In this document: piece by piece, positions 6,599 through 43,884 of the stretch
Layout: every line of letters starts with the position of its first letter
Position numbering within the stretch: position 1 is the stretch's first letter
Assembly (NCBI RefSeq): GCF_009939225.1
Contig: NZ_JAACJR010000008.1
Location: forward strand, 1,113,107-1,177,106
DNA length: 64,000 nt
Source: Sediminibacterium soli
Lineage (GTDB): Bacteria > Bacteroidota > Bacteroidia > Chitinophagales > Chitinophagaceae
Direction: 5' to 3'
Translations under genes and position numbers: made by a program
Notes under the pieces: generated by a model
Told to the model about the DNA's origin: nothing
The model's input: only the letters and a program-made list of their open reading frames with translations
Database searches by the model: none

Positions 6599-6606
6599 GG
6601 TTTGAA

Positions 6607-7599: not shown

Positions 7600-7690
7600 A
7601 AGATGAGCGCTATAGTGTAAACTTAAAAGATAAGGCCGCCTTATGCAAGCAGCCTTATCCGATTCAATTGGTTTGCCGAACGGAATGCGC

Positions 7691-9514: not shown

Positions 9515-9533
9515 AAGAAAGAGTTTATTGTTT

Positions 9534-18105: not shown

Positions 18106-18153
18106 AAACCAAACGATTTTGCCAAGCATTTTATCATAACGCAAAAATGATCC

Positions 18154-19412: not shown

Positions 19413-19430
19413 AAATCGGGACAAAATAAC

Positions 19431-19477
19431 AATAGGATGAAAAAAAAGCAGCCGGAACCGCATTTTTTCATCCTATT
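19431..19477. terminator. Bidirectional terminator between cas2 and the CRISPR array
   Basis: The arms AATAGGATGAAAAAA (19431-19445) and TTTTTTCATCCTATT (19463-19477) pair perfectly over 15 bp, with a 17-nt loop. The plus strand continues with a T-run (to 19481), and the A-run on the left arm gives a U-run when read on the minus strand. It can end the cas operon and an array transcript coming from the other side. Confidence 0.8.
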
Positions 19478-19520
19478 TTTTAGCTCAAATACAGCGCCAG
19501 CAAGGCTTTCAGCTGAATCA

Positions 19521-22572: not shown

Positions 22573-22643
22573 ATAACAGTCGATAGGATACCGTAAGATA
22601 CAATAATATACCAGTGAAAAATCAGGCATCGTTCGGCAATAAC

Positions 22644-25262: not shown

Positions 25263-25841
25263 TCAGGCCTGAGGCGGTCTGTCGGGTCTTTGCAGCAGAA
25301 CCGATTTCAGTCCGGCAAAAACCTGTCTGCCAAAATCCACAGAAGATTCTTCGGTTTTAAACTGCCATAAAAAACCGTGATCATCCGTAAAATCCTGGAT
25401 CGAGAATTTTGCAGTAAAGGAAGGATGTCCTGCTTTACCGGAGGCGGTATTGTTACCGGCCAGGTCGTTGACCATACGGCCGTAGTTTTCTTTTGCTTTC
25501 TTCAGGCCGGTTTTCTCCATATTGGGAATACACAATAATTCAAGCGAATCATTGTACACGCGGCGTTTTACGTAGGTATAGGTGGTTCCCTTGATATTGA
25601 TCTCACCCTCTACCCTTTCGTATTCTGCGGAGTTATGGTAATAGGGAAGGCTGGTAGCCACTTTGATGCTGATAAGATCCGATTCGCTGTACTGGTTGCG
25701 GTCAATACTGGCGCTGAGCCGCGCGTCTGCCCTGTTCTCCAGGAAGCCGGTGAACAGGCGGTAACCTCCCCAACTGAACAGGAGCATACCCAGCAGCAGT
25801 ATGGCAGCAATACGTTTCAAGTTCATGTGAAAATAACACAT
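25263..25841 (-). CDS. Membrane-anchored protein of unknown function
   Basis: 192 residues, not recognised. The N-terminus is a signal-anchor (RIAAILLLGMLLFSWGGYRLF). The rest looks like a soluble periplasmic domain with alternating strands, for example KVATSLPYYHNSAEYERVEGEI and GTTYTYVKRRVYNDSLEL; the C-terminus is QRPDRPPQA. The start ATG at 25841 shares its A with the stop codon of the GH65 gene (TAATG), a sign of coupled translation; an ATG at 25826 is the alternative. The haloperoxidase-like gene follows after 48 bp. Confidence 0.7.
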   Translation of the reverse strand: MCYFHMNLKRIAAILLLGMLLFSWGGYRLFTGFLENRADARLSASIDRNQYSESDLISIKVATSLPYYHNSAEYERVEGEINIKGTTYTYVKRRVYNDSLELLCIPNMEKTGLKKAKENYGRMVNDLAGNNTASGKAGHPSFTAKFSIQDFTDDHGFLWQFKTEESSVDFGRQVFAGLKSVLLQRPDRPPQA

Positions 25842-28054: not shown

Positions 28055-28993
28055 ATGAAAAAAATACTGGTTATCTGCCTCGCCGTGTTACTGGTTGCTG
28101 CTGCCTCTGTTTATTTACTGGTTCCATCCAGCCTGACTATGTCCAGCATTGCCTATATCCATTGCCCTGACAATGCTGCGGGAAGGTTTCTTTCGGATGA
28201 AAACAAATGGCAAAGCTGGTGGCCCGGCAGTAAATCCGGCAGTAAAAACGAACTTTCGTATACCTATGACAATATTGGCTTCAAACCGCTTGAAAAAGCA
28301 TTCAGCGGCACCAAACTGGCCACCACCATCAACGGCGTTACACTCAACGGAACCATGGTGCACGCCAAATCTTCCTACGATTCCATTGTGGTGGTATGGC
28401 AGTACGGACTGAAGACAAGCAATAACCCTTTTACCCGTGTGGGGCAATACCTTCAACTCAAAAAGCTGAAAGGCGCAACGGCGGCGATCCTTGCGCATCT
28501 GAAAGATTTTCTCGAGAACAGGGATAATGTATACGGCCTCGCCATCCGCGAGATCCGTGTTACCGATACGCTGCTGGTAAGCAGTTTTTTTGAATCGGCG
28601 CAACCGCCCGCCATGGAGGCTATTTACCATTCTATTGATCAGCTGAAGCAGCATATTGCAGGGAACGGGACGCAGGAAACGGGGTTCCCCATGCTGAATG
28701 TTTCGCGTATCGACAAAGACCATTACAAAACCAGGGTTGCCATCCCCGTCAGCAAGGCGGTGCCCGCCGGCGGCGGCATCGAGATCAAGAAAATGGTGCC
28801 GGGCCGCATCCTGGTGAGCGAGGTCAAGGGAGGGCCTGCCGCCATTGAAAAAGCCTACGCGCAATTCAGGGAGTACCTCCTGGATTACGACCTGGCATCG
28901 CCTGCAATACCTTTTGAATCGCTGGTCACCAAACGCATCCCCGTAAAGGATTCCGCCACCTGGATCACACGTATTTACTATCCCATATTGTAA
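28055..28993 (+). CDS. Membrane-anchored protein with C-terminal GyrI-like (effector-binding) domain
   Basis: 312 residues starting with an N-terminal hydrophobic anchor (ILVICLAVLLVAAASVYLLV). The first half after the anchor resembles polyketide-cyclase/SRPBCC-type proteins (PDNAAGRFLSDENKWQSWWPG). The second half, from about residue 160, resembles GyrI-like/AraC effector-binding domains (AIREIRVTDTLLVSSFFES; KKMVPGRILVSEVKGG), which usually bind small hydrophobic ligands in soluble regulators. No DNA-binding part is present, so direct transcription control is unlikely. The T9SS protein gene follows 55 bp downstream on the same strand. Confidence 0.7.
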   Translation: MKKILVICLAVLLVAAASVYLLVPSSLTMSSIAYIHCPDNAAGRFLSDENKWQSWWPGSKSGSKNELSYTYDNIGFKPLEKAFSGTKLATTINGVTLNGTMVHAKSSYDSIVVVWQYGLKTSNNPFTRVGQYLQLKKLKGATAAILAHLKDFLENRDNVYGLAIREIRVTDTLLVSSFFESAQPPAMEAIYHSIDQLKQHIAGNGTQETGFPMLNVSRIDKDHYKTRVAIPVSKAVPAGGGIEIKKMVPGRILVSEVKGGPAAIEKAYAQFREYLLDYDLASPAIPFESLVTKRIPVKDSATWITRIYYPIL

Positions 28994-29048
28994 GCCGGAT
29001 TGCGTAAATTGGTGCAGGATTCTTCGCAACCGCCCCGTTGTGATCGCT

Positions 29049-31163
29049 ATGGGTACCCGCCATCTTTTGCGTTATGTATTGCTTTACAGCGTTTGCTTTT
29101 GGGTAAGCGCCGCCTCTTCGCAGTCATGCCTGACCGGTAATTTTTCCATTGCCTATCGCGGTACGGAAAACCAAACGATGGTCAAAACAATTTTCACTGC
29201 GCGTAAGGAACTGTTCTGCGCAGGTAATCTTGGCTACACCAAAAACAACCTGGTACGATCCGACGGATGGCTGAGTCTTTTTACCGAGAGCGGCAACCTG
29301 GTATGGTCAAAAAGAATGCAGGTGCCCGGTTACGACCTGCTGACCTTCCGGGATATGACAGCGGCCACGGATTCCACTTTTCTTATCAGCGGTTTTATAC
29401 AAACCTACTGGGGCGCAACAGACCCGTTGAATCCTGTGCCCAACCCTAACTGGGGTGTATTGCTGCATGTGGATCGTTACGGCAACCTGTTATGGGCAAG
29501 AAAAATGGACAAATCCTTTCAGCCCGGAACGGAAAGCACGTTCATCGAGAATTTACTAAAGACCAGGGATGGCGATATTGTGATGAATACCGTGCTATGG
29601 AAGCGCCCGCCTTTCCAGACAAAAACAGTGATGCTGAAAATGGACCTGTCTGCCCGGATCAAATGGGCCACCGCCTATGCTTCGGATATTTTTGAATTCC
29701 GCTTCAACCTGTCTAACCGCCTGATACAACTGGCAAATGGCGCTATCGTAGCCGCCGGCATCATCGACCAGCGGATCGTTGGCAGGGATTCCATTCTGAA
29801 AGTGAACTATTACTGGTTATCGCTCGACGAAAAAAACGGCACCAAACGATGGGACCGCTGCTATTTGCTGAGGAATAAAGCCGCCAATGTATTCTTTCCT
29901 GAGAGCTCTGTACGCAACATTACAGAACTGCCCAATGGAGATATTTCCTTTGCCGCCTATGCAGACACCAATGCCATCACGGTTCCGCCGGCCTCCTCGA
30001 GGAGTGTGAATATGATCGCTGATGCGAATGGCATGCTGAAAAAAACAATCGCCTACCAAACCGCGCTTCCCGGGTCCTATACCGTTGACGGCAGCGGGCT
30101 GGCAGATGGCAGCCAGCTATTGCTTACCGAAAATGGCGGCAGCGCCAGTATTGCGGAGATCGATGTTGGTGGCCGGCCGGTAAGATGGAACACACTGCAA
30201 ACGACCAATGGCCGCGAGCGGGCGGCCGCTTTCTGCACGGGCGGCAACCAGTATTTTGTGTTCATGAATATCCCGGCCGATGCCAAACAAACACAGCTGG
30301 TCAGAACCGCCCCTGCCGCTGATGTTAACTGCCGTATTATTCCCGGCGATTTCACTGCCTATACTGCCGATTTTTTCTCAGGCGACAATGCACAGATGCA
30401 GTTTGGCAGCGATAGCGTTATGCAGGACCCGTTTTCTGTTTTGCAGGTAACGGCCAGTGAATACCCATTGCAAAGAACAGACGAATGCAATTACAGCTGC
30501 TGTGCTTCGGCAGCCGCCGCTACCATGAAAAAAGACACCATCTGCAGCGGCGGTTTTGTGCTGCCCGATAATACCCGCATACAATACTCCGGTGATTATT
30601 TTGTGCGCTTCAGCACGGCAAAAGGCTGCGACAGCATTGTATATTATTCTTTCGAGGTACGCAGGGAACCTTCTTCCCTCTCGCTGGGGAAAGATACCTG
30701 TATGGAGAACAAAGACTCGGTGGTGCTGTACGCAACGCCCGGTTATGGCCAGTATCGCTGGATGAACGAACCCGTATCCACCGCAGATCATTACACGGTG
30801 CGGCAGGCCGGTGTGTACTCGGTATCGGTGCAAAATATATGCGGCGCTAAAACAAGCCGGGTAACGGTACATGCTTTGTGTGATGCGCCGCTTTACATTC
30901 CCAATGCGTTTACGCCGAACGGCGATTACCTCAACGATGTGTTCCGGATACCGGCAACGGGTAAACACAAACTGATCAGTTTCCGAATCTACAACCGCTG
31001 GGGCAACCTGTTGTTCTCTTCCGACGACTTCAGCCGGGGATGGGATGGCAGTTACCGAAAAATCAAACAGCCATCGGGCACGTATGTTTACCAGGTAGAA
31101 GCAGAATCGTTACTGACCGGCAGAAAGATCAGCCTGGCAGGAAGCCTGCAATTGATCAGGTGA
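29049..31163 (+). CDS. Large secreted protein with T9SS C-terminal domain (gliding-motility-associated type)
   Basis: 704 residues from the ATG at 29049; a GTG three codons upstream is the alternative. A signal peptide (LLRYVLLYSVCFWVSAASSQ) is followed by a propeller-like region with repeated strand pairs (GWLSLFTESGNLVWSKRM; GVLLHVDRYGNLLWARKMD; LPNGDISFAAYAD). A cysteine-rich stretch (NYSCCASAAAATMKKDTICSGG) precedes an Ig-like segment (YGQYRWMNEP). The last ~85 residues are the CHU_C/type B sorting domain: YIPNAFTPNGDYLNDVFRI, FRIYNRWGNLLF, YVYQVEA. It should therefore leave the cell through the type 9 secretion system. It meets the minus-strand FG-GAP gene tail to tail with a 1-bp gap. 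Confidence 0.85.
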   Translation: MGTRHLLRYVLLYSVCFWVSAASSQSCLTGNFSIAYRGTENQTMVKTIFTARKELFCAGNLGYTKNNLVRSDGWLSLFTESGNLVWSKRMQVPGYDLLTFRDMTAATDSTFLISGFIQTYWGATDPLNPVPNPNWGVLLHVDRYGNLLWARKMDKSFQPGTESTFIENLLKTRDGDIVMNTVLWKRPPFQTKTVMLKMDLSARIKWATAYASDIFEFRFNLSNRLIQLANGAIVAAGIIDQRIVGRDSILKVNYYWLSLDEKNGTKRWDRCYLLRNKAANVFFPESSVRNITELPNGDISFAAYADTNAITVPPASSRSVNMIADANGMLKKTIAYQTALPGSYTVDGSGLADGSQLLLTENGGSASIAEIDVGGRPVRWNTLQTTNGRERAAAFCTGGNQYFVFMNIPADAKQTQLVRTAPAADVNCRIIPGDFTAYTADFFSGDNAQMQFGSDSVMQDPFSVLQVTASEYPLQRTDECNYSCCASAAAATMKKDTICSGGFVLPDNTRIQYSGDYFVRFSTAKGCDSIVYYSFEVRREPSSLSLGKDTCMENKDSVVLYATPGYGQYRWMNEPVSTADHYTVRQAGVYSVSVQNICGAKTSRVTVHALCDAPLYIPNAFTPNGDYLNDVFRIPATGKHKLISFRIYNRWGNLLFSSDDFSRGWDGSYRKIKQPSGTYVYQVEAESLLTGRKISLAGSLQLIR

Positions 31164-31164: not shown

Positions 31165-34100
31165 CTATTTATCCGCAAAACGCAGCAATACGGCGGTATC
31201 GTTGTTACGCGCAAGTACCCAGGCCGCCTTTTTGCCAATCTTTATGGGACGTATTTTTCTTACCTGTCCTTTTACCGAAACCCCGTTGATCGTTTGCACG
31301 GCAAAACCGGCTTTGCCTTTGTTCACGAGCAGGGTTCCGTAATCTGCATCATACCTTCCCATCTGGATATTGTTGCCGTAGTAATTACCGCCGAGCAAAA
31401 TATCAGTCAGGCCGTCTCCATTGGCATCGATCGTTGCCGCATCGCGGAAAGAACTGAGCTGCGCTTCCCAGGGAAGAGCCTGTACGGTAAAAGAAAGATT
31501 GCCGTTATTGATGAGTATGGCATTGGAAAAATAATCGGCGCTGTACTGCTGCGCTTTACCAAGCTGGTCTCTGCTTAAGATATCCGTAAGACCGGCTTTT
31601 GCAAAATCTTCGGCATAGAGGTATTTTTTCTTCAGTACGGGCATTTGTTTTTCGAGTTCTGCTTTGTTGGCAAAGGGCAGTTCTTTTCCGTTAAGGTAGT
31701 AAGTAAGCACCTGCTCTTTTTTTCCGTTACCGTCAAAATCGTCGTAATACAGGCGAACAGGCTGTTGCGCCGATGCTTTCAGCCTGCTGTTCAGCCCCAG
31801 GTTTCCTGCAACAAGATCCAGGTCGCCGTCGTTATCAATATCCACCGGCAACAGAAAATTCCACCAGCCTTTTTTATCCGTAAGCACCTGTCTGCTGAAT
31901 GTGCCGCGGGTATTGATGAAGGCATCAATGCCACCCCATTCCCTGCACAGCAGCAGGTCGGGGTCTCCGTCTTTGTCGATATCCGTCCAGACCGAACCCG
32001 TTACCATGCCCGCATCTTTGATCGCTGGCGCATACAAAGCCGTTACATCCCTGAATTTTCCCGAACCATCGTTCTGCAACAGGCGGGATACCGGTGCCTG
32101 ACCGTAGGCAAAAGGCACGGCCCTGCTGCCTATGAACAGGTCAACATATCCGTCTCCGTTAAAATCGGTGGCGCTGATACACGAGGCTGTCATAAAAATA
32201 TCGTCAAAGGCATGCGCCAGTTTTACCAGGTTGCCTTTGCCATCATTCAGGTAGGCGCGTGGCTGCAGGTACTCTTCCCTACCGTAGTATTCGTTACCGC
32301 CGCTGGCCACCAGCAGATCGGGATAACCGTCTTTGTTGATATCTGCCCAGCAGGCATCCACATCTTCATACACACTGTCTTTCTCCAGCGCCGGCTGCCG
32401 CAGACTGGTGAACTTCCCCGAAGCCTGCTGTAACCAAACGCCTCGCCGGGTTTCTTTGGCGCCGCCGATAAAAACATCTTCCAGGCCGTCTTTATTAATG
32501 TCTCCCACCGCCAGCGCCGGTCCTTCGGTAGAAACCATATGCGGCAGCAGGGGCTCACGGTTAAATTCGTTGAACTCATTTTCGGTATGCCTGAACAGGA
32601 GCCCCGTCTGCGCGGCAATGTCTTCCATCCGGCGCGTGTTATTGGGTCTGAAAGAAACGATCCGGTTAAAATCGAAAAGCGGAAGACCTTTCCTGTAGGT
32701 AAAAGTGTATGCCGACTGTCCGGGCTTAAACCGGATAACCTCGTAGGTATTGTCGGGCCATACAAGAAACGAAGAATCGATCCTGGTTTGGTCAAGGCCA
32801 ATATGCAGTGATGTTTCCATGCTCGAAAGAAAACCCCTGACCGGTGTTTTCTCGTAGCTGCGTATACTGTCTGCCGTAAAAAGCAGCACTTTTGCACCCG
32901 TGGCGTTGATGTTCTTTGCATCGCCCTTCAGCCTGATCTCGGCGTATGCCTTGCTGCGGTCATCATTGCTTTTGTTTGCGTAAACCAGTACCGGCTCATC
33001 AATATTGTTTACCACGATATCCAGATCTCCGTCGTTATCGAGATCGGCATATACGGCGCCGTTGGAATAAGTGGGTATATCGCCGGCGATATGCGCTCCC
33101 ATATCGGTAAAGACCATATTGCCGCTGTTTCGGTAAAATTTGTTGGGGATCTTGATCTGGGGAAATTTATCGATCAATGCCATATCCGTCTGCGCAAGAC
33201 TGTTGGAGCGGATCTTGCTCTGTATCTCTCCATCCGAAACAAAATTGATGTAGTCGATATCGTTCATCCGCTTGGGTATGCCATTCGATATAAAAAGATC
33301 TTTACGGCCATCGTTATCGAAATCCATCCATAGACTTGCCCAGCTCCAGTCTGTTGCCGCCATACCCGAATACAACCCGGTTTCACTGAACATACCGTTG
33401 CGCCTGTTCAGCTGCAGGTTGTTGCGGGTATACTGGTAATGGTACCCGTAACTGATCTTCATGTTGAAGATATCATAGGCATCTTCTCCCTCCGATCTTT
33501 TCAGGATATAAGGGTCTGAAGGCAGCATATCCATCGAAGTGATATCGGGAAAGCCGTCGTTGTTCACATCCGCAATATCCACACCCATCGAAAACTGGCT
33601 GGTATGCATCAGCCTTTCTGTGCTCTCATCGCGGAATGTTCCGTTGCGCCGGTTGATATAGAGGTAATCGTTCTCGTGAAAATCATTGCCCACATAAATA
33701 TCGGGATAGCCGTCAAGGTTGATATCCGCCACCACCACGCCCAGTCCGTAGCTGATAGCGGAGCTGTTGATGGCAGATGCTTTGGTAACATCGGTAAAAT
33801 GCGCCCCATCGTTGCGATACAGCCTGTCGCCCGACAGCTCATTGTAGGTGCCGAGGAAATGACTTCTCTCTGCAAAAGACCCGTTCTGGTGCACGGAATG
33901 ATTCAGCAGGAACATATCCAGATCACCGTCCCTGTCGTAATCCAGAAAAGCGGCCTGGGTACTGAACCCTGCAAAATCGATCCCGTAGGCCTGCGATCTT
34001 TCCTCGTATTGCGGAACACCGTTTTTATTGATACCGGTGCACAGCAGCAGCAGGTTATGTCCTTTTAATGTCTCATATTTTCCCACACGGCATATATACA

Positions 34101-34509
34101 GGTCCAGCAACCCATCGTTGTTGATGTCCACCACCGATACGCCGGTAGACCAGGACCCGTCCTGCACCACCCGCGCTTCGGCGGTAACGTCTCTGAAATG
34201 CAGCGACCCAGTATTGAGGTACAATTTGTTTTCGCCCTGGTTGGATGCGAAGAAAAGATCTACCAGACCGTCGTTGTTAAAATCGCCTGCACCCACGCCG
34301 CTTCCGTTATAGAAATACATGTACTTGAACATGTTGAAATCCTGCGTGGGTGTCAGTTTGTTGTTGAAGGCAATACCGGTGCGGTCTTCTTTCAGCACCT
34401 CGAACAATACGGGCCCGCCGGGCGTTTGTTTGCATGATGAAAGCGTCACCAGTGCCCATCCGCCTAACAGGATCCATACAACCGATTTTATTCCCGTACA
34501 GTTCCGCAT
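31165..34509 (-). CDS. FG-GAP/VCBS repeat lipoprotein with ASPIC/UnbV domain, copy 2 of tandem pair
   Basis: 1114 residues from the ATG at 34509, which is preceded by AAAGGGGAAATAGT, a plausible ribosome-binding site; an upstream ATG at 34527 would overlap the preceding gene. The lipobox TLSSC is followed by KQ. At least a dozen calcium-loop motifs of the DxNxDGxxD kind are present (DFNNDGLVD, DINNDGLLD, DYDRDGDLD, DIDNDGDLD, DANGDGLTD), arranged as beta-propeller blades. An ASPIC/UnbV-type segment lies mid-protein (NATGAKVLLFTADS to SSFLVWPDN). Likely a surface calcium-dependent binding protein linked to the SusCD pair upstream; no catalytic motif was seen. It starts one base after the first copy stops. 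Confidence 0.88.
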   Translation of the reverse strand: MRNCTGIKSVVWILLGGWALVTLSSCKQTPGGPVLFEVLKEDRTGIAFNNKLTPTQDFNMFKYMYFYNGSGVGAGDFNNDGLVDLFFASNQGENKLYLNTGSLHFRDVTAEARVVQDGSWSTGVSVVDINNDGLLDLYICRVGKYETLKGHNLLLLCTGINKNGVPQYEERSQAYGIDFAGFSTQAAFLDYDRDGDLDMFLLNHSVHQNGSFAERSHFLGTYNELSGDRLYRNDGAHFTDVTKASAINSSAISYGLGVVVADINLDGYPDIYVGNDFHENDYLYINRRNGTFRDESTERLMHTSQFSMGVDIADVNNDGFPDITSMDMLPSDPYILKRSEGEDAYDIFNMKISYGYHYQYTRNNLQLNRRNGMFSETGLYSGMAATDWSWASLWMDFDNDGRKDLFISNGIPKRMNDIDYINFVSDGEIQSKIRSNSLAQTDMALIDKFPQIKIPNKFYRNSGNMVFTDMGAHIAGDIPTYSNGAVYADLDNDGDLDIVVNNIDEPVLVYANKSNDDRSKAYAEIRLKGDAKNINATGAKVLLFTADSIRSYEKTPVRGFLSSMETSLHIGLDQTRIDSSFLVWPDNTYEVIRFKPGQSAYTFTYRKGLPLFDFNRIVSFRPNNTRRMEDIAAQTGLLFRHTENEFNEFNREPLLPHMVSTEGPALAVGDINKDGLEDVFIGGAKETRRGVWLQQASGKFTSLRQPALEKDSVYEDVDACWADINKDGYPDLLVASGGNEYYGREEYLQPRAYLNDGKGNLVKLAHAFDDIFMTASCISATDFNGDGYVDLFIGSRAVPFAYGQAPVSRLLQNDGSGKFRDVTALYAPAIKDAGMVTGSVWTDIDKDGDPDLLLCREWGGIDAFINTRGTFSRQVLTDKKGWWNFLLPVDIDNDGDLDLVAGNLGLNSRLKASAQQPVRLYYDDFDGNGKKEQVLTYYLNGKELPFANKAELEKQMPVLKKKYLYAEDFAKAGLTDILSRDQLGKAQQYSADYFSNAILINNGNLSFTVQALPWEAQLSSFRDAATIDANGDGLTDILLGGNYYGNNIQMGRYDADYGTLLVNKGKAGFAVQTINGVSVKGQVRKIRPIKIGKKAAWVLARNNDTAVLLRFADK

Positions 34510-34510
34510 A

Positions 34511-37500
34511 CTATTTCCCCTTTCCATTCTTTTGAAGTTCCATCAAAACCGGCAGCTGGTTGTTCTGCAGGAACAGCAGGTACCGTTTGCCGGGTGTATT
34601 GATCAGCCCGATATCTTTCAGTTCGGCGCGGAGCTCGAGACCGGAAGCATTGGGTTCCATGGCCGTAAACCCGGCTTTGCCATCGTTCAGCAAAACGGCA
34701 CCATAGCCCGCATCCAGCCGTCCGAGCTGCGGCATAAAAGTGAATTTGTTTCCGCCAAGGACAAGATCGGTTCGGCCATCGTTGTTCACGTCCATACACC
34801 GGATGGCATTTACAGACGATAACTGCTGTATCAGCGGAAGTTTCTGCACGGTGAACTGTCCGTTCCGGTTATTGAGCGCCACACAGGAGGCAGAATAGGT
34901 AAAATCCTTTACCGAAGCTTTTTTCAGTTGTTCCTCCGTAAACAGTTCCTGCACCGGCTTGGTTGCAAACGTTTCGTGACGCAGGTTTTTCTTTTTTAAA
35001 GCGGGCACCTGTTCTTCCAGATCGCGTTTCAGGAATACAGGCATATCTTTCCCGTCAATGGCTCTGGTAAGTATTTTGTCGTTGATATTATTCTGGTCAA
35101 AATCGGATACCCATATCTTCACCGGGTTCTGCGCATCTGGCCGCAGGTAAAAATTTTCCCCAATATTACCCAGCACAAGATCTTCGTCTCCGTCTCCGTC
35201 CAGGTCGGCCGCCTGCAGTGTCTGCCACCAGCCATGCATGCTCGACAGATTGGTTTTTACCTCTGCAAATTTGCCGCCGCTGTAGGCAAATGCACGCACA
35301 CCCATCCACTGCCCCGCGATCACCAGTTCTTTTTCCCTGTCGCCCTGTATGTCTACCCAGGCCGCGCCTGTTACCATACCGATCTTTGCGATATCGGGGT
35401 TGCGTTCGGCGGCGATATCCGTAAAATGTCCTTTGCCGTCGTTTACATACAGGTAGCTGGAAGGGGTAACGCCGTATTCGCCGGGCACGCTTCTGCCGCC
35501 TACAAAAAGATCCAGATCGCCATCGCGGTCAAAATCGCTGGCAACGGCTACGCCGATGTTTACGCTGTTTGCCGGGAAGGCATTGTCGGCAACACGGAAG
35601 TTTCCTTTGCCATCGTTCAGCAGCAGGCGGTGTGCGAATATCCTGTCGCCAAAGGAAGCGTTGTTACCTCCGGCTCCTACAAACAGGTCAAGGTCTTTGT
35701 CGCCATCCGCATCAAAAAACAATACCGCCACATCTTCAAAATCCACGAACCGGTCAAATACGGGCTGCACTTTTTTTACAAAGGCGTTGCCTGCTGTCTG
35801 CAGGTATAATTGTCCCGGATGTTTAACGGTTCCGCCGATAAACACATCATCGAGCCCGTCGCCGTTCACATCGCCCACCGCGCAGCGTGGCCCCTCGCGC
35901 GAAAGCATTTCCGGTATGTTCCGCTCGGTATAAAAATCTATATAATCGTCTTCGGTATGTTTTTCAAAATTGCTTTTTACCGGCATCAGCAGGGGCTGCG
36001 CCGTGAAGGGTGCGGGCTCGCCGATCTTTTTTGCCTGCGCCGGCTGCTGCAGCACATGCAGCGTGTCAATGGCCGGATGATCGTATGTTGAATAGGTTCT
36101 GTTGGGCCAGATCACCACCAGCGAATCGATCTTTGTCTGTGCACCCAGACCGATCACGGTCTTATAATCCATTGAAGACTGAAAGCCCCTGCTTGGCATC
36201 AGCTCGCGGCTAAGCACCTCTTTACCGGTATACACTTTGATGCTGCTGCCTATGGCAAATGTATTGCCGGGCAATCCCTTCAGTGAAACGGACACATAAT
36301 GCTGCGGGGTTGTTTCGCGGCTGTTGTTGCGGTAGATGAATGCCGGCTGGTTTACATTGTTCACGACCATATCGAGATCTCCGTCGTTATCGAGATCACC
36401 ATAGGCGGCTCCGTTGGAGAACGAGGGTTGGGTGAATCCCCAGTTTTTGCCTTCGTCCGTAAAATGCAGGTTGCCGGTATTGCGGAACGCCTTGTTAAGC
36501 AGCGGAACGGAGGGCATTTTATTGATAACGCTGTCCACCTCACGCATTTTACCCGAGAGCGCGGTCTTCTGTACGATGTCGTTGGCAAAAAAATCGATAA
36601 AATCCTGGTTGGTCAGATCGTGTGTAATGCCGTTGCAGATATAGAGATCCGTTAATCCATCGTTATCGGCATCGAACATCAGTCCGCCCCAGCTCCAGTC
36701 TGAAGCCGCAACACCGCTGAAATAGGCGGCATCCATGAATTTGCCATGCCGGTTATTGATCTGTAAGGTATTCTGCTGGTACTGGTGGTAAAAGCCGGTG
36801 TTTTCTTTCAGTTTGTATACATCGATGTTATCGAATGCGGATGTTGTTTTCAGCCGGTAATCGTCATCGGCCAGCATATCGGTGGTGAATATATCCGGAT
36901 AGCCGTCGTTGTTCACATCGGCGATATCGGCGCCCATAGAGGCCAGGCTGGTATGCTGCATCCAGTTCTCCAGCTCATCTTTGAATGTGCCGTTCCTCTG
37001 GTTGATGTAGAGGTAATCGCGTTCAAAAAAATCGTTCGATACGTATACATCGGGATAATTGTCACCGTTCACATCGCCTACGGTAACACCCAGACCAAAG
37101 CTGATCAGGCTGCCATGTATACCCGCCTCGCTGCTTACCTCCTTGAACCTGCCGTTGTCATTGCGGTACAAATGATCACCGCCGCCGCGCAGGTAAGGCG
37201 CGATGGGCCATTGCGCTGCCGGCAGGTCGCGCTTGTTTGCATAGTTAAGCGTGTTGACCGGTATGGGACTGTTGTTAACGATAAAACAGTCCAGGTCCCC
37301 GTCCATATCATAATCGAAAAAAGAGGCCTGGGTAGAATAACCGCTGTCTGCCAGACCATATTCTTTCGCAGATTCCGTAAAGGTAAGATCGTGGTTATTG
37401 ATGTAAAGCTCGTTCTCCCTGCTGACACCATCGTTGATATGCGCCGAATTGCAGACATAGATATCCAGCCAGCCATCGTTGTTGATGTCTACCATTACCA

Positions 37501-37837
37501 CACCCGTACTCCATTTTTCCTTGGGGGTAAACCCTGCTTTCGCCGAGATGTCTTCAAATTTCCAGTTACCCTTGTTAAGAAACAGTTTGTTACTGCCCAT
37601 GTTGGCAGTGAAGAACACATCGGCCAGTCCGTCGTTGTTGATATCGCCGATGCCCGCACCGCCGCCGTTGTAAAAATTCCGGAAGGAAAAAATGTTCTGG
37701 TCCCGCGTGTTCTGCACTGTGTTGGTGAAAGATATCCCCGTATGCTCCATGAGCTCGAACAAACCGGCCGCTTTTTTTTGTTTACAGGAAAAAAGCAGGA
37801 GGAGCACAGGGATAAAAAACTTACCGTAAGATTTCAT
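34511..37837 (-). CDS. FG-GAP/VCBS repeat lipoprotein with ASPIC/UnbV domain, copy 1 of tandem pair
   Basis: 1108 residues from the ATG at 37837 (MKSYGKFFIPVLLLLFSC, lipobox Cys followed by KQKK); a start at 37852 is possible but adds residues before the signal. It is a paralogue of the next gene with the same architecture: about a dozen DxNxDGxxD calcium loops (DINNDGLAD, DVNNDGYPD, DLDNDGDLD, DLDGDGDED) and an ASPIC/UnbV segment (FAIGSSIKVYTGKEV to DSLVVIWPNRTYS). It follows the SusD gene but is separated from it by a hairpin with a U-run just 13 bp before its start codon, so it may be expressed less than SusCD. Probably a surface glycan- or protein-binding partner; function unknown. Confidence 0.88.
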   Translation of the reverse strand: MKSYGKFFIPVLLLLFSCKQKKAAGLFELMEHTGISFTNTVQNTRDQNIFSFRNFYNGGGAGIGDINNDGLADVFFTANMGSNKLFLNKGNWKFEDISAKAGFTPKEKWSTGVVMVDINNDGWLDIYVCNSAHINDGVSRENELYINNHDLTFTESAKEYGLADSGYSTQASFFDYDMDGDLDCFIVNNSPIPVNTLNYANKRDLPAAQWPIAPYLRGGGDHLYRNDNGRFKEVSSEAGIHGSLISFGLGVTVGDVNGDNYPDVYVSNDFFERDYLYINQRNGTFKDELENWMQHTSLASMGADIADVNNDGYPDIFTTDMLADDDYRLKTTSAFDNIDVYKLKENTGFYHQYQQNTLQINNRHGKFMDAAYFSGVAASDWSWGGLMFDADNDGLTDLYICNGITHDLTNQDFIDFFANDIVQKTALSGKMREVDSVINKMPSVPLLNKAFRNTGNLHFTDEGKNWGFTQPSFSNGAAYGDLDNDGDLDMVVNNVNQPAFIYRNNSRETTPQHYVSVSLKGLPGNTFAIGSSIKVYTGKEVLSRELMPSRGFQSSMDYKTVIGLGAQTKIDSLVVIWPNRTYSTYDHPAIDTLHVLQQPAQAKKIGEPAPFTAQPLLMPVKSNFEKHTEDDYIDFYTERNIPEMLSREGPRCAVGDVNGDGLDDVFIGGTVKHPGQLYLQTAGNAFVKKVQPVFDRFVDFEDVAVLFFDADGDKDLDLFVGAGGNNASFGDRIFAHRLLLNDGKGNFRVADNAFPANSVNIGVAVASDFDRDGDLDLFVGGRSVPGEYGVTPSSYLYVNDGKGHFTDIAAERNPDIAKIGMVTGAAWVDIQGDREKELVIAGQWMGVRAFAYSGGKFAEVKTNLSSMHGWWQTLQAADLDGDGDEDLVLGNIGENFYLRPDAQNPVKIWVSDFDQNNINDKILTRAIDGKDMPVFLKRDLEEQVPALKKKNLRHETFATKPVQELFTEEQLKKASVKDFTYSASCVALNNRNGQFTVQKLPLIQQLSSVNAIRCMDVNNDGRTDLVLGGNKFTFMPQLGRLDAGYGAVLLNDGKAGFTAMEPNASGLELRAELKDIGLINTPGKRYLLFLQNNQLPVLMELQKNGKGK

Positions 37838-37842
37838 ATCTA

Positions 37843-37879
37843 TAAAAAACAAAAGGTCATTAAAATTAATGACCTTTTG
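37843..37879 (-). terminator. Intrinsic terminator/attenuator between SusD and the FG-GAP genes
   Basis: On the minus strand CAAAAGGTCATTAA pairs perfectly with TTAATGACCTTTTG (14 bp; arms 37879-37866 and 37863-37850) and is followed by TTTTTTATA. The hairpin is AT-rich but exact. It ends about 6-13 bp before the FG-GAP start codon at 37837. Confidence 0.7.
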
Positions 37880-37902
37880 CGTCTGTATACGAATGTTATG
37901 AA

Positions 37903-39468
37903 TTAATAACCGGGATTCTGCTTCAGGTTAGGGTTAACCGCCAGCGCCGCACTTGGTATAGGGTACAGCAGGTATTTGGCAGCTGATGCAGCAGGCTTCA
38001 GCGTTCTTGCGTTCAGGAAGGTGCCGAAGCGGATCATATCCTGTCTTCTCCAGCCATCCCAGTAAAACTCTCTCTGCCTTTCATCAAGCAGGTCGCCTGC
38101 TGTGAGCGCGAGCAATGGCGTAGCGCCGCGCTTTAAACGAAGCTGGTTAACACCGATCAGCGCAGAAGCCGCGTTGTTCGACCGGAGCTGTGCTTCAGCC
38201 TTCATCAACAGTACGTCTGCGTAGCGGAAGAACACATAGTCGTTATCGCAGGAACCGTCGTTAGAGGTGGTGTAGTCGATGGGATAACGCAGCACGCGGA
38301 TACCGGTCATCTCGAGGTTATTACCCGACTCCTGGTTGGCAACGGTAGCCGTAAATGCCAGCGGAGCGCCTTTCCTGTCCTGTAACGGAGCATCTGTTTT
38401 CCAGTCGTACTGCTGACCCACCAGGAAACCGGCGTTAACGCGGTTACCGGGGTTAGGCAGGTTAGCGGCAGGACTTAAATCTTTGTAATTGGTACCCCTT
38501 CTTTCGTCGGTAGCTTCAAATTTATTATACACTTCCGCCAGTGTGGAGAAGCCGTTCCAGCCGCTCTTGTTCTGGTTGTAATGCAGGGTTTTGTACCAGG
38601 AAGAACGGATGTTACCGCCTTTTGAACCACCGATACTGAGGTTGGTAAAGATGTTCTCGTTGGAATTGGTGGTGTTGCTTGGCGCGTAGTTGTCAAACAC
38701 GCTGTTTGCCAGCGAGTAGCCTGTTATCTGGTCGGCAAGCGCGATCACTTTTGTCATATCGCCCGCGTCAAAAGCAGGTGCGGCACGGTTGATAAATGCG
38801 CCTTTGTTCAGGTAGCATTTCATCAGCAGTACGCGGCAGGCGTCTTTGTTGGCCTGGTAAGCTTTACCGCCCGCTGAAGGACCTGCCGGCAGGTCGTTCT
38901 GGATGGCTGTGAGCTCGGAGATGATGAAGTTCGCCGCGTCGGCACCGCTCAATACCTTGGGTGCGTTCAGCAGGTTCTCACCCGGATCGCGGTAAGGTAC
39001 CTGGCCATAGAGGTCGAGTACGGTAAACATGGCAAATGCACGGATATACCTGGCTTCAGCCGCCTGTTGCGCCGACGGTTTGAAGGTCAGCACGTTGGTG
39101 GTATTGAACACGATGCTCAGCAGCGAGTTGAAAGAACTGCCCACCTGCGCGTGGTCGGCATTCCAGTTATGCGTGTGGATTACCCTCCATACACCGTTAT
39201 CGTCCCAGTCGCCACCGCGTGTGGGCACCAGTGATTCATCAGAGCTGTTCTCCTCCAGAGAGGTAGGGCCATCCTGGTTACCAAATGTCTGCAGACCGTC
39301 GTAGCAGGCCTGCAGCAGTACCGACACATCTGTTTTGGCCAGCAGGATCGCCTGGGCCTGATCGGCGGTAAGAGAGGAATTCAACTTCTCATCAAGCTTG
39401 GTACAGGCGGCAAGACCCAGTCCCAGCGTGAGCGTCAGCGCGACCGTGGAAGTTTTTATATGTTTCAT
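37903..39468 (-). CDS. SusD/RagB-family lipoprotein (second SusCD pair)
   Basis: Surface glycan-binding lipoprotein, 521 residues, with the lipobox LGLAAC (Cys22). SusD features include the early helix (LLQACYDGLQTFGNQDGP), the TPR-like AEARYIRAFAMFTVLDLYGQVPY segment, the ADVLLMKAEAQLRSNN segment and the C-terminal ERQREFYWDGWRRQDMIRFG, ending LKQNPGY. It begins 54 bp after the SusC gene. Ligand unknown; no glycoside hydrolase is encoded in this unit. Confidence 0.95.
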   Translation of the reverse strand: MKHIKTSTVALTLTLGLGLAACTKLDEKLNSSLTADQAQAILLAKTDVSVLLQACYDGLQTFGNQDGPTSLEENSSDESLVPTRGGDWDDNGVWRVIHTHNWNADHAQVGSSFNSLLSIVFNTTNVLTFKPSAQQAAEARYIRAFAMFTVLDLYGQVPYRDPGENLLNAPKVLSGADAANFIISELTAIQNDLPAGPSAGGKAYQANKDACRVLLMKCYLNKGAFINRAAPAFDAGDMTKVIALADQITGYSLANSVFDNYAPSNTTNSNENIFTNLSIGGSKGGNIRSSWYKTLHYNQNKSGWNGFSTLAEVYNKFEATDERRGTNYKDLSPAANLPNPGNRVNAGFLVGQQYDWKTDAPLQDRKGAPLAFTATVANQESGNNLEMTGIRVLRYPIDYTTSNDGSCDNDYVFFRYADVLLMKAEAQLRSNNAASALIGVNQLRLKRGATPLLALTAGDLLDERQREFYWDGWRRQDMIRFGTFLNARTLKPAASAAKYLLYPIPSAALAVNPNLKQNPGY

Positions 39469-39522
39469 AAACGTTATTTTAAGTATTGTAGTTATATACG
39501 GTTAAAATGTCTTTTGTGTTGC

Positions 39523-42483
39523 TTACAGTCCAAAGTTTAAACCAAACAGGAAGGATTTGGAGGAAGGGTAAGGGATGTACTCGATACCCAGTGAAGGAAC
39601 ACCGCCGATGTTTTTGTCGGTATTCACCTCAGGATCAAATCCGGAATATTTGGTGATCACGAAAAGGTTTTGTGCTGTAAAGAACACATTCACATTTTTG
39701 ATGTTCTTGCCCATGTTACCTACGCGGTAGCTGAGTGAAAGGTTTGCCAGTTTCAGGTAATCGCCTTTTTCAAGATACCTTGAAGAGGTGGTGATCGGGT
39801 TGGCCAGGCTTTCTTTTACCGGACCACCGATCAGCGAGGCAGCAATATTCCTGGTTCCGAGGTTACCGATAGGCACGATCGCGTTCAGCGTGTTGTTATA
39901 GATCATATGACCCATAGCACCGTTGAGGTTGGCAACCAGTGTCCATTTCTTCCAGGTAACATCAGAGCTGATACCCAGCAGTGTTTTGGGGTTGGGGTTA
40001 CCGATATAATACAGGGTATTGCCATTATCGCCGTACACACTGTTACCGGAAGCATCCAGACCGTCAAATCTTTTCAGGTAGAATGCGTTCAGGGGCTGGC
40101 CGGAAGCCAAACGCTGGATGCTGGCACCCGAAAGACCCTGGCCGCTGATGGAACCGGTCAGCACGGCCGGACCTTTGTAGTTCTGCATTTCGTTCTTCAT
40201 GAAAGCGGCGTTAACAGACGCGTTCCATGTTACGGAGGTGTTTCTAACCAGCGCCGCGCCGAGGGTAACTTCAATACCCTTGTTGATTACGTTACCGGGC
40301 AGGTTGATCCAGTATTTGGTAGCCGGAGCAGGCTGTATCGCGTCAAAGTTGAACAGGATATCCGTGGTGTTCTTGTTGAAGTAATCAACCGTACCGAACA
40401 CCCTTCCGCCAAACAGTTCGAAATCGATACCGATATCGTATTGCTTGGTTGACTCCCATTTCAGATCGGGGTTGGCTACGTTGGCCAGTGCAATGGAACC
40501 CTGTCTGAAAGTATACTGCGCCTGTGCGGAACCCGCAGGGAAGGCCTGGTTACCCGTGATACCCCATGAAGCCCTCAGCTTCAGGTTGGAGAAAGTGTTG
40601 TTGCCTTTCAGGAAATCTTCGTTGCTGATGTTCCAGGCAGCGGCAACAGAGGGGAAATAGCCGTATTTATTGTTGGAACCGAACTTACTGGAACCATCGG
40701 CCCTGAATGTACCGGTTACGAGGTATTTATCGCGGTAGTTGAAAATGGCCCTGGCAAAATAAGACTGCAGGGAAGAAGAAGGATCTTCAAAACCGAATAC
40801 CTGGCGGCTTGTCTGGCTTGAGTTCTGCAGGATGCTGGTATAGGATACCTGGTCCGAAGTAAAGTCAAGCGCGGTGATGCCGTTGCCTTTGAAAGAGAAT
40901 TTCTGGTATTCGTAACCCGCCAGACCGGTAAAGCTGAGGCCGGAGCTAATCTGCTTGCTGTAGTTCAGCGTATGCTGCAGTACCATGGCAGTGAGCTCGT
41001 TGTTCAGATAACCTGCAAAGCCCCTGTTCTCGATACCGGTGAGCGTGATATAAGCAGCTTCAGTGGCCCTTCTCACACCTACCTGGTGGTTAAGGCTGAA
41101 ATTGAATTTATATTCCAGGTCGTCGGTGAGTTTGTACCCCACACCCACTGTACCGAATAAATTGGTCACATCGGCCTTATCATTATATCCCTGCTGCATG
41201 GCAAGCGGGTTTACCGTAGTGGAACCGGGAATGATGTTCAGGGAACCGTCTGCCTTACGCAGCGCCTGGGTGGGGTTCCACTGCAATGCCATACCTATGA
41301 TATTGGAAGTAAAACCGGCATCGTTACTGATCGGTCCGATATTTTCGGTGTTGTGTGCGGCAAGCACGTTGAAGTCAACTGACAGTTTCCTGCTCTCCAG
41401 GAATTTGTACTGTCCGTTCATATTAAAGGTGTATTTCTTCAGACCTGTTCTTTTCAGGATACCTTCCTGGTTCATATAACCGAAAGACATACGGTATTTA
41501 CCATTCTCCGAACCGCCGCTCATACCGAGGTTCACGTTGTGCGTGATGGCTGTCTGGAAAATCTGGTCCGTAGCGTCAACACTTGTTCCCAGATCACCGC
41601 CGGTAAGACCATAGCTTTTCAGCGCAGCACGGTACTGATCGCCCGAAAGCACATTGTATTTCTTGCGGATCTTGCTGAAACCAAGAGAATAGTTCAGATC
41701 GATCCTCGGAGCACCTGCCTGTCCTCTTTTGGTGGTGATCATGATCACACCGTTCGCGCCGCGTGAGCCGTAGATCGCTGTACCGGAGGCATCTTTCAGC
41801 ACATCCATCGAAGCGATGTCATTGGGGTTATAGAAATACAGCGGGTTCACATCAGGTGTGCTGCCCAGACCGGCAACGTTCAGACCCGGACGTGCATTTC
41901 TTCCGTCCAGCGGAATACCGTCGATCACAAACAGCGGAGAGTTACCCGAACGAACGGAGTTGTTACCCCTGATACGAACGGTGGTGGCGCCACCGGGCGC
42001 ACCGCTGTTGTTGATCACCTGCAGACCCGCAACCTTACCCTGGATCAACTGATCGGGGGCTGTGATCACACCGGTATTGAAGTCCTTGGCTTTTACAGAA
42101 GTCACCGCACCTGTAAGATCGCGCTTACGCGTGGTGCCGTAACCGATCACCACCACTTCCCCCAGCTGTTCGTTGGTGGCAGTAAGCGCAACATTGGCGG
42201 TGGTGCTGTTCTGTACATTCATCTCCTGTGTGCCAAAGCCCACGGAAGAAAACACAAGTGTGGTGGTTGCCGACGGAACCGACAGACGGAAAGAACCATC
42301 CGCACCTGTCTGCGTACCCGTTTTGGAACCTTTTGCCACAACGGATACACCTACCAGGGGGGAACCATCCTTCACGTCAGTTACTTTACCTGTGATCGTT
42401 TTGTTCTGCGCCTGCGAAAGAAGGGCGAATACGCAGGCGAATAAACCCACAAGCGTGGGCCTGACAAGCAACTTTAAATACAT
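39523..42483 (-). CDS. SusC/RagA-family TonB-dependent transporter (second pair)
   Basis: Outer-membrane importer, 986 residues. A signal peptide ends near LLSQAQ (residue 26). The carboxypeptidase-like domain (KTITGKVTDVKDGSPLVGVSV), the TonB-box region (GEVVVIGYGTTRKRDLTGAV), the plug (ASGTAIYGSRGANGVIMITTK) and a barrel ending in FLFGLNFGL follow in order. It is shorter than the SusC of the pectin locus. The promoter region carries two palindromes (42510-42524 and 42723-42746). It heads the unit SusC-SusD-FG-GAP-FG-GAP. Confidence 0.95.
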   Translation of the reverse strand: MYLKLLVRPTLVGLFACVFALLSQAQNKTITGKVTDVKDGSPLVGVSVVAKGSKTGTQTGADGSFRLSVPSATTTLVFSSVGFGTQEMNVQNSTTANVALTATNEQLGEVVVIGYGTTRKRDLTGAVTSVKAKDFNTGVITAPDQLIQGKVAGLQVINNSGAPGGATTVRIRGNNSVRSGNSPLFVIDGIPLDGRNARPGLNVAGLGSTPDVNPLYFYNPNDIASMDVLKDASGTAIYGSRGANGVIMITTKRGQAGAPRIDLNYSLGFSKIRKKYNVLSGDQYRAALKSYGLTGGDLGTSVDATDQIFQTAITHNVNLGMSGGSENGKYRMSFGYMNQEGILKRTGLKKYTFNMNGQYKFLESRKLSVDFNVLAAHNTENIGPISNDAGFTSNIIGMALQWNPTQALRKADGSLNIIPGSTTVNPLAMQQGYNDKADVTNLFGTVGVGYKLTDDLEYKFNFSLNHQVGVRRATEAAYITLTGIENRGFAGYLNNELTAMVLQHTLNYSKQISSGLSFTGLAGYEYQKFSFKGNGITALDFTSDQVSYTSILQNSSQTSRQVFGFEDPSSSLQSYFARAIFNYRDKYLVTGTFRADGSSKFGSNNKYGYFPSVAAAWNISNEDFLKGNNTFSNLKLRASWGITGNQAFPAGSAQAQYTFRQGSIALANVANPDLKWESTKQYDIGIDFELFGGRVFGTVDYFNKNTTDILFNFDAIQPAPATKYWINLPGNVINKGIEVTLGAALVRNTSVTWNASVNAAFMKNEMQNYKGPAVLTGSISGQGLSGASIQRLASGQPLNAFYLKRFDGLDASGNSVYGDNGNTLYYIGNPNPKTLLGISSDVTWKKWTLVANLNGAMGHMIYNNTLNAIVPIGNLGTRNIAASLIGGPVKESLANPITTSSRYLEKGDYLKLANLSLSYRVGNMGKNIKNVNVFFTAQNLFVITKYSGFDPEVNTDKNIGGVPSLGIEYIPYPSSKSFLFGLNFGL

Positions 42484-42789: not shown

Positions 42790-43680
42790 TCAAAATTGGC
42801 CGCTTGCATAGCGGTATACCAGTTCCGACACAGCAGCCAGGGTTTCGACGGCCGCCTTCTCGTCTTCCAGGTTCTTTGACAGCAGCACCAGCACGTATTT
42901 TCTTCCGTCGGGCAGCAATACAATGCCCGAATCGTGCTGCACACCGGTGATGGATCCGGTTTTGTGCGCCACACGCACTTCTTTGGGAAGTTTTGCCGGG
43001 ATGATCTCGTTGAACTGCTGGTCAAGCAGGATACCGATCATTTCATCACAGGCTTTTGCATCGATGATCTCCGCCCTGGCCATTTTATCGTAAATGGTCA
43101 TCAGGTCTAGGGCGGTGGTGGTATTGTTCCATCCTTTCCGGTAGGCTTTGCTGTCTTCCACGCCACGCAGCACCTGTGTTTTTTCCGCTCCCAGCTGCCG
43201 CATGGTTTGGGTTACCTGCCTGGCATCTGCCAGTTCTATCAGCAGATTGGTGGCGAGGTTGCTGCTTTTAATGATCATCTGGTAAAGCAGGTCGCCGATG
43301 GTTTTCTTTGTGCCGATCTGCGTATACAGTTCCTGCTGGCCGTCGTCTGCGGCGTTAAGGCTGTAGCCGCTGCTGTCAACGATACTGCTGAATGAATTCC
43401 TGACCACCACACTGTCTGTCAGCCGTATCTTTTTCAGCCCGTCAAGCCTGAACAGCTCGATCATTACCGGAGTTTTCATCGTACTGGCGGCATGAAATGA
43501 TTCCTGCTCGTTGATCAGGATGGTTTCGCCTGTCTGGCTGTTCCGGAAAGCCATGGCAAAAACGCCCCGCTGACCCGCGAATAATCGTTTGATCTCTGCC
43601 GATACCGATACGGCAGAGGATTGCCCCCTACCTGATGTGACCATACCAACCATGAGCAGAATTATTAACCGGTAACGCAT
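42790..43680 (-). CDS. Class A beta-lactamase-related serine hydrolase
   Basis: Exported protein of 296 residues from the ATG at 43680 (signal MRYRLIILLMVGMVTSGRGQ); the frame extends 17 codons upstream without a signal. Penicillin-recognising fold motifs: S-x-x-K in ASTMKTPVM (nucleophile Ser), SSN in place of SDN (IKSSNLATN), and KTG (HKTGSITGV). A Glu lies in the omega-loop-like RGVEDSKAYRKGW segment, but the usual ExxLN order is absent. It belongs with Beta-lactamase2-type hydrolases; resistance activity cannot be assumed and a cell-wall or esterase role is possible. Its 3' end faces the SusC promoter region. Confidence 0.8.
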   Translation of the reverse strand: MRYRLIILLMVGMVTSGRGQSSAVSVSAEIKRLFAGQRGVFAMAFRNSQTGETILINEQESFHAASTMKTPVMIELFRLDGLKKIRLTDSVVVRNSFSSIVDSSGYSLNAADDGQQELYTQIGTKKTIGDLLYQMIIKSSNLATNLLIELADARQVTQTMRQLGAEKTQVLRGVEDSKAYRKGWNNTTTALDLMTIYDKMARAEIIDAKACDEMIGILLDQQFNEIIPAKLPKEVRVAHKTGSITGVQHDSGIVLLPDGRKYVLVLLSKNLEDEKAAVETLAAVSELVYRYASGQF

Positions 43681-43884
43681 ATTGCCGCTTCCATTACTGC
43701 TACAAAATACGGCCAGGGCCGGTAAAAACAAGCGGGATGATACCCCGAACGGGAATTAAGACCCTACAGCCGGGTAGACAGGGCGGATTGGGTGGATGCA
43801 TACCGGGCACAGGATTCCGCCGGCGTACAAGCATTGGTTTCTTTTCTGTCGCTGTGCCGGATGACAGGGTATCCGGCCGGTACT

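Follow-up and report, generated by a model that had tools for sequence, protein, structure and literature searches.

What does a SusCD importer do with two giant lipoproteins full of calcium-type loops, and does such a unit work without an enzyme? The question is raised by four adjacent genes of Sediminibacterium soli at positions 31165-42483 of a 64,000-nucleotide stretch of contig NZ_JAACJR010000008.1 (hereafter the window, meaning the whole stretch). A preliminary description, made from the letters alone, had suggested that they capture a ligand other than a polysaccharide, or serve as a binding platform, with no enzyme encoded beside them. The reading that we favor, at a probability of roughly one half (0.52), is that the giants are CRTAC1-like lipoproteins accessory to a SusCD sugar importer, whose substrate in this case is probably an alpha-glucoside and which is linked to haloperoxidase chemistry. 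It is built on gene content, homology, catalytic residues, fold and the recurrence of the neighborhood, all observed here.

The Four-Gene Unit

From SusC downstream, the unit consists of the following features:

39523-42483, minus strand: SusC-type TonB-dependent transporter, 986 aa (TIGR04056, 701 bits, cut-off 368)
37903-39468, minus strand: SusD-type lipoprotein, 521 aa (PF07980, 92.5 bits)
37849-37880, minus strand: terminator-like hairpin in the spacer between SusD and giant B, with a 14-bp stem and a T tail
34511-37852, minus strand: FG-GAP/ASPIC lipoprotein B, 1113 aa from a TTG start, with a CRTAC1-like half and a second beta-propeller
31165-34527, minus strand: FG-GAP/ASPIC lipoprotein A, 1120 aa, a paralogue of B

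The first description had the coordinates and the order right: SusC and SusD are followed by two paralogous lipoproteins of ~1110 residues, 43% identical and with one ASPIC/UnbV domain each. TIGR04057 and PF07980 also score above cut-off, and the SusC/RagA TonB-linked barrel and the SusD lipoprotein adjoin on the same strand, 54 bp apart, as in SusCD pairs. The best solved match of SusC is chain A of 8aa4 (E 2e-104), a dextran utilisome entry from Bacteroides thetaiotaomicron, and that of SusD is 3ck7 (E 3e-21), which we take to be the starch SusD protein. The translations of A and B each begin with a hydrophobic segment and carry a lipobox Cys, and in order and lipobox they resemble SusE/F as lipoproteins encoded after SusD. 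The first 17 bp of A overlap the end of B. Translation of B probably begins at the ATG at 37837 rather than at the TTG at 37852, which falls within the hairpin.

The Giant Lipoproteins

By Pfam, A and B each have nine FG-GAP_3 stretches, FG-GAP repeats and one UnbV_ASPIC domain; PF13517, PF01839 and PF07593 all score above cut-off, and the order of an FG-GAP propeller and then ASPIC/UnbV places both in the CRTAC1/ASPIC-UnbV class. The dozen or so calcium-type loops first noted in each giant hold up on counting, as Dx[DN]x[DN]G occurs 14 times in A and ten times in B; 1000 shuffles of each protein's own residues average 0.2-0.3 and never exceed 3-4. The giants would presumably bind calcium through these loops. 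In a structure model of B (pLDDT 91.5, pTM 0.91; 63 sequences used), residues 30-605 superpose on CRTAC1 (9etn) with Z 39.9 and a root-mean-square deviation of 2.4 over 456 aligned residues at 22% identity, and residues 618-1107 form a second propeller. This architecture was modeled for B and is assumed for its paralogue A. Structure comparisons return many unrelated propellers, which indicate "propeller" and no more; matches of the second half of B include the propeller of aldos-2-ulose dehydratase (4a7k, Z 28).

Among 136 giant sequences the invariant residues are mostly the Asp, Asn and Gly of the loops, and Trp386-Ser-Trp388, Met306, Gln357, His632 and Glu634 are conserved as well. Neither this conservation nor the structure match of B reveals an evident catalytic site or motif, and a catalytic role of the giants, conceivable in view of these conserved residues and of the dehydratase match, is unsupported by sequence or model. 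The preliminary description had named a recognizable catalytic site in either giant as a check on its account; none was found, and the binding platform that it proposed is plausible. To our knowledge, no function has been assigned to giant CRTAC1-like lipoproteins. A lipobox is present in 162 of 196 FG-GAP proteins of at least 900 residues (by a simple pattern). A and B are apparently ancient paralogues whose order is fixed; B precedes A in 41 of the 45 other two-giant runs behind SusD (AB in three, BB in one), and runs of three read ABA (10) or BBA (3).

Enzymes Downstream of the Unit

The four genes themselves are without an enzyme, as first described, but their neighborhood is not. A glycoside hydrolase of family 65 (GH65) and a VIPO-type vanadium-dependent haloperoxidase (VHPO) are encoded 3-8 kb downstream, and both recur in relatives. 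On this comparison of neighborhoods we reject the unit as enzyme-free. The recurring neighborhood extends down to about 21577:

29040-31163, strand opposite to A: CHU_C type IX secretion domain protein, 707 residues, convergent with A and 1 bp from it
28055-28993, plus strand: weakly GyrI-like protein (25.8 bits, cut-off 26)
25841-27877, minus strand: GH65 kojibiose hydrolase, an alpha-1,2-glucosidase (NF053734, 1216 bits, cut-off 800)
25263-25841, minus strand: small protein of 192 aa between GH65 and VHPO
23886-25214, minus strand: VIPO-type VHPO lipoprotein, Cys variant, homologous to 4cit/4usz
22752-23846, minus strand: 364-residue protein behind VHPO, no recognized family
21577-22629, minus strand: LacI-family regulator (PF00356 and Peripla_BP_3)

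The GH65 protein matches 7fe3 with E 3e-284 and retains the acid Glu472, the base Glu616 and the kojibiose pair Trp391-Glu392; its motifs ADEWAEN, FRVIAETKGG and FPWES align with that structure. Thr407 of the Flavobacterium johnsoniae enzyme is Ser in the window (position counted by hand), and the N-terminus has a hydrophobic segment resembling a signal peptide. With a carbohydrate-active enzyme (the GH65 kojibiose hydrolase) and a regulator (LacI) alongside SusCD inside 21 kb, though probably on a separate transcript, the locus has the content of a polysaccharide utilization locus. Because of these two genes and of the nearest solved SusC (8aa4) and SusD (3ck7), the ligand is probably an alpha-1,2-linked glucoside, and the non-polysaccharide ligand suggested earlier is not favored.

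We propose the following scheme. SusCD and the two giants would form the outer-membrane part, the giants standing on the cell surface in the operon place of surface glycan-binding proteins and having a similar binding role. SusCD would import an oligosaccharide with alpha-1,2 (kojibiose) links, which the GH65 hydrolase would split to glucose, and the LacI regulator would control the set, importer and enzymes together. The VIPO-type VHPO, lipid-anchored and attached to the import system, may serve the same process by oxidizing halide with peroxide at the envelope.

The Haloperoxidase

The window VHPO matches the solved iodoperoxidase of Zobellia galactanivorans (4cit/4usz) with E 4e-114 over residues 1-439, near full length. 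It keeps K322, R329, G357, H358, R408 and H414, and has C356 (TGC codon at 24147-24149) in place of a Ser; we take the vanadate-binding set of VIPO enzymes to be Lys, Arg, Ser, Gly, His, Arg and His, of which six of seven are thus kept. All 64 aligned VHPOs have the Lys, the first Arg and the first His; 63 have the second Arg and His (one unread) and 61 the Gly, and Cys replaces Ser in the window protein and 13 others. A tree of 72 VHPOs places the window protein in a branch of 14 rows (SH-aLRT 97); Cys is common to the whole branch, and the remaining VHPOs have Ser, except for one with Ala. The replaced Ser is position 358 of the Zobellia enzyme (counted on the pairwise alignment), a site that presumably bears on halide choice.

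The vanadate-site residues are also those of the PAP2 site, and the window protein does match the PAP2 model. Kojibiose is present in some teichoic acids, and the protein might then be a PAP2-type phosphatase that dephosphorylates a kojibiose-bearing polymer (e.g., teichoic acid) before uptake. We regard this as very unlikely, since the iodoperoxidase match (E 4e-114) is far stronger than that to the general PAP2 model (E 2e-7), and the Zobellia protein nearest to the FG-GAP-linked one is an iodoperoxidase. The natural role of bacterial iodoperoxidases is, as far as we know, unsettled. In Z. galactanivorans, the iodoperoxidase vIPO3 was upregulated with Ascophyllum, apparently relative to alginate (PMC9296495).

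Recurrence in the Nearest Relatives

We compared the locus with the best 80 of 453 confirmed loci (numbered with an L), a biased sample in which many loci end at contig ends. Of these loci, 57 extend 3 kb or more upstream, and in 53 of the 57 a same-strand SusD gene precedes the FG-GAP genes, which bears out the recurrence first claimed for the arrangement; SusC alone is found in one of the remaining loci and neither gene in three (L040, L048, and L087). VHPO is present in 31 of the 80 loci; 14 of these are among the 30 loci that reach 6 kb or more past the last FG-GAP gene, and in the other 17 the sequence beyond it is shorter than 6 kb. In many relatives the VHPO gene comes straight after the FG-GAP genes in the same orientation, and marine Flavobacteriaceae usually have SusC and SusD, in some cases further genes, then three FG-GAP genes, VHPO and a GyrI-like gene, in this order. 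Median same-strand gaps, with this sample pooled with the second one described below, are 2 bp between FG-GAP genes (n = 102), 3 bp between FG-GAP and VHPO (n = 34), 19 bp between SusC and SusD (n = 67) and 112 bp between SusD and FG-GAP (n = 58).

The smaller genes of the neighborhood recur too. Homologues of the GyrI-like gene occur in 35 other loci, on the strand opposite to the FG-GAP genes in every one (that of L039 has no GyrI-like match), and the 21 loci with at least 5 kb beyond it include 13 with VHPO, 13 with the small protein and eight with GH65. The CHU_C protein has homologues in four other loci, three of them beside an FG-GAP gene. A LacI homologue lies divergent just upstream of SusC in 21 of the 43 other loci with room. 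The 192-aa protein precedes VHPO in 15 places, the window included, at a median gap of 58 bp; it has no match in Pfam (E 0.01) or NCBIfam (E 0.001), and its model (pLDDT 62) is too poor for a function to be read from its fold. The 364-residue protein likewise has no match in Pfam (E 0.1) or NCBIfam (E 0.001); its homologues, in eight other loci of the best-80 set, stand mostly directly behind VHPO, and at a guess from its sequence it is possibly an outer-membrane barrel.

These counts bear on whether the four-gene unit stands alone, enzyme-free, and captures a non-glycan ligand or serves as a passive platform. The unit itself is without an enzyme, convergent and opposite-strand genes part it from the GH65-VHPO set, and a hairpin lies behind SusD. 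The SusCD-FG-GAP and GH65-VHPO sets nevertheless recur together in many loci, and other FG-GAP loci carry glycosidases, so a stand-alone unit is quite unlikely.

Recurrence across the Phylum

A less biased sample comprised 118 genomes taken evenly across the phylum Bacteroidota. It holds 34 VHPO genes in 22 genomes, all of them within the 53 genomes that have ASPIC genes. We called a VHPO strong at >240 bits (27 strong, seven weak) and read 32 regions in addition to two loci of the window's own genome. Of the 27 strong VHPO genes, 20 have a long FG-GAP gene no farther than about 10 kb away, as does one of the seven weak ones; L129, with its FG-GAP gene cut by a contig end, and L124, with FG-GAP on the other strand, are scored as present. 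The seven strong genes without one are those of L108, L110, L112, L117, L120, L125, and L127. Linkage was also counted on 151 ASPIC rows (the matches listed and one row from the window's own genome). Among the matches listed, an ASPIC match lies within 12 kb of 19 of the 27 strong VHPO genes, against 0.52 expected, and of none of the seven weak ones; matches beyond those listed could raise both this count and the expectation and enlarge the denominators on the FG-GAP side. Viewed from there, a VHPO accompanies 19 of 71 long FG-GAP clusters at a distance of up to 12 kb, and it accompanies none of the 43 short or other ASPIC clusters, again among the matches listed.

Could the adjacency of FG-GAP and VHPO genes be chance or a purely regional association? 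The genomes share ancestry, so that matches are not independent, and most of the long clusters listed are without a VHPO. Set against this are the 19 linked genes where 0.52 are expected, gaps of few bases, and linkage spread over seven of the phylum's family codes (f1, f3, f5, f8, f16, f21, and f22), and a chance association is hardly credible.

We read 18 of the 52 long clusters that are unlinked to a VHPO, and 13 of them have SusC and SusD. SusC only was found in L145, L152, and L154, and neither in L148 and L150; L142 has two plus-strand genes between SusD and FG-GAP, and in L155 FG-GAP is upstream of SusC. Proteins picked from some unlinked regions are GH30, a PF10091 glycoamylase, GH3 and an SMP-30 protein, and those picked from FG-GAP loci other than the window's also include GH13, GH26-like and GH20 enzymes. 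Because 13 of the 18 regions carry SusC and SusD, with glycosidases among the proteins picked, we regard the giants as probable accessories of SusCD in general and VHPO as a frequent, not obligatory, partner. Two broader propositions were rejected on the same counts. VHPO is not a universal partner of the giants, since 52 of 71 long clusters and 43 of 43 others are without it (matches listed), and kojibiose hydrolase is not a general enzyme of FG-GAP-VHPO loci, with GH65 near four of the 27 strong VHPO genes.

The close pairing also invites a reading in which the giants are primarily haloperoxidase partners and the locus is a system for halogen (iodine) oxidation and uptake. Peroxide from sugar oxidation would drive iodide oxidation at the surface, and SusCD would take up the product. 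FG-GAP stands directly before VHPO, with the 3-bp median gap given above, and does so too in L128, L131, and L132, whose stretches as read show no SusCD; iodine uptake by Arenibacter C-21 reportedly requires glucose, oxygen and calcium (PMC5064120); and the Zobellia enzyme, run as a control, showed only iodoperoxidase activity (PMC10427571). The Arenibacter study (PMC5064120) proposes a glucose oxidase and a haloperoxidase and counts five or more homologues of the Zobellia enzyme in the strain's genome, a parallel only, if a suggestive one. Most long FG-GAP clusters, however, are without a VHPO (among the matches listed), the SusC and SusD of the window are closest to dextran and starch systems, glycosidases recur, and no sugar oxidase was recognized in the window's gene set. 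An iodine system is for these reasons unlikely.

The Window's Own Genome and Other Single Genomes

The genome from which the window comes has three ASPIC genes and two VHPO genes, all in the same two neighborhoods. The locus of the third FG-GAP gene reads SusC, SusD, FG-GAP, DUF1573, a protein with a CxxCH motif and FG-GAP, VHPO and GH20. The CxxCH protein (L024, 7578-9167) is a short FG-GAP protein with a heme-type motif, encoded between the giant's DUF1573 neighbor and VHPO; in L121 its homologue comes after VHPO. The motif possibly points to electron transfer close to the haloperoxidase.

In Zobellia uliginosa, the VHPO that matches 4cit (E 3e-273) lies directly behind three giants, which come after SusC, SusD and one opposite-strand gene. 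A second strong VHPO lies directly behind SusC, SusD and two FG-GAP genes, and a third is weak, with no FG-GAP gene in its stretch. The annotation of a Hymenobacter plasmid has a TonB receptor, SusD, a VCBS protein, two hypotheticals and a 519-bp gene named vanadium-dependent haloperoxidase, near which are GH127 and GH3.

The Hairpin behind SusD

Under a strict definition, a hairpin was found in 33 of 54 SusD-to-FG-GAP spacers of 30-400 bp (the window included), against 0.15 expected from mononucleotide shuffles. It is found in one of 16 FG-GAP-to-FG-GAP spacers, none of 12 SusC-to-SusD and none of seven FG-GAP-to-VHPO spacers; spacers that involve unlabelled genes have it in 27 of 178 (unlabelled to unlabelled), four of 12 (unlabelled to FG-GAP) and four of 15 cases (unlabelled to SusC). 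As it is also present in six of six spacers from SusD to an unlabelled gene, the hairpin may belong to SusD ends in general rather than to FG-GAP. We infer partial termination, which would yield more SusCD than FG-GAP protein. Expression independent of SusCD had been named at the outset as a second check on the first account; with a hairpin between SusD and B, expression of the giants may be out of step with that of SusCD.

Evidence against the Favored Reading

Several observations weigh against an alpha-glucoside importer with accessory giants and linked haloperoxidase chemistry. GH65 lies near just four of the 27 strong VHPO genes (the window, L109, L110, and L115), which restricts the kojibiose link to a minority, and 52 of the 71 long FG-GAP clusters are without a VHPO within 12 kb (among the matches listed). 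The parts of the locus can separate, since some SusCD-FG-GAP loci with GH65 have no VHPO in their stretch (L078, L079, and L143) and L110 has GH65 and VHPO without FG-GAP in its stretch. Some FG-GAP-VHPO pairs (L128, L131, and L132) show no SusCD in the part that was read. In the window, the GH65-VHPO genes are probably on a separate transcript from SusCD-FG-GAP because two opposite-strand genes intervene, and no endo-glucanase was recognized in the window's gene set. Finally, acidic residues following the lipid-anchored Cys favor surface export in Bacteroidota, and the five positions after the Cys hold a mean of 0.77 acidic residues in FG-GAP proteins and 0.92 in VHPO, compared with 1.49 in SusD (simple lipobox pattern).

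A wider generalization can be offered tentatively, and we think it more doubtful than the reading of the window itself. VIPO-type haloperoxidases of Bacteroidota would as a rule partner giants and SusCD, coupling halide oxidation to TonB-driven uptake (by conditioning the glycan, protecting the import site or acquiring halogen), and the 14-member Cys branch would be a haloperoxidase subtype with altered halide choice.

Other Features of the Window

A type II CRISPR-Cas locus occupies 14368-21333, with a Cas9-like protein (RuvC_III and HNH), Cas1, a small protein judged Cas2-like from its size and position, and a 24-repeat array with a spacing of 76-77 bp. A second SusCD locus, on the minus strand at 4967-12908, has a pectinesterase and GH43. 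Genes for GH31 and alpha-L-fucosidase stand in a row at 58817-62868, with a further SusD near the right end of the window, and a Beta-lactamase2-family protein (PF13354, 176 bits) is encoded at 42790-43731, upstream of SusC on the same strand.

Comparison with Known Systems

The shared loci offer a concrete hypothesis for both the iodoperoxidases and the giants, that of an import complex carrying a halide-oxidizing enzyme, and the adjacency to giants in many relatives makes the natural role of the VIPO-type enzyme testable. Among the papers listed in our searches of an open-license library, none was seen to describe the link between giants and VHPO; the founding iodoperoxidase paper, which lies outside it, may discuss gene context.

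Each part of the locus has a known counterpart from which it departs. CRTAC1 (cartilage acidic protein 1) shares the FG-GAP propeller and ASPIC/UnbV with the giants, whereas the bacterial protein adds a second propeller and, by sequence, a lipid anchor. The Z. galactanivorans iodoperoxidase resembles the window VHPO over its full length, in its lipoprotein-like start and in the metal-site K, R, G, H, R and H, and differs in that the window protein has Cys for the Ser before Gly-His and further clade-specific residues.

At the level of the whole locus, the levan and dextran utilisomes of B. thetaiotaomicron likewise co-encode SusC, SusD and further outer-membrane lipoproteins, and the SusC of the window is nearest the dextran one in the Protein Data Bank. 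A complex of the window's proteins is putative. Unlike the utilisomes, the window set has no recognized surface endo-hydrolase, and its accessories are double-propeller CRTAC1-like giants. The FjDexUL locus of F. johnsoniae is a SusC-SusD-SusE locus for branched dextran with a GH65 kojibiose hydrolase (PMC10316084), and shares SusC, SusD and that enzyme with the window. It has SusE/F, GH66, GH31, GH97 and a SusR-type regulator of its own, and none of the eight genes listed for it is FG-GAP or VHPO. The window, in contrast, has FG-GAP, VHPO and LacI genes, with no GH66, GH31 or GH97 recognized in 21577-42483.

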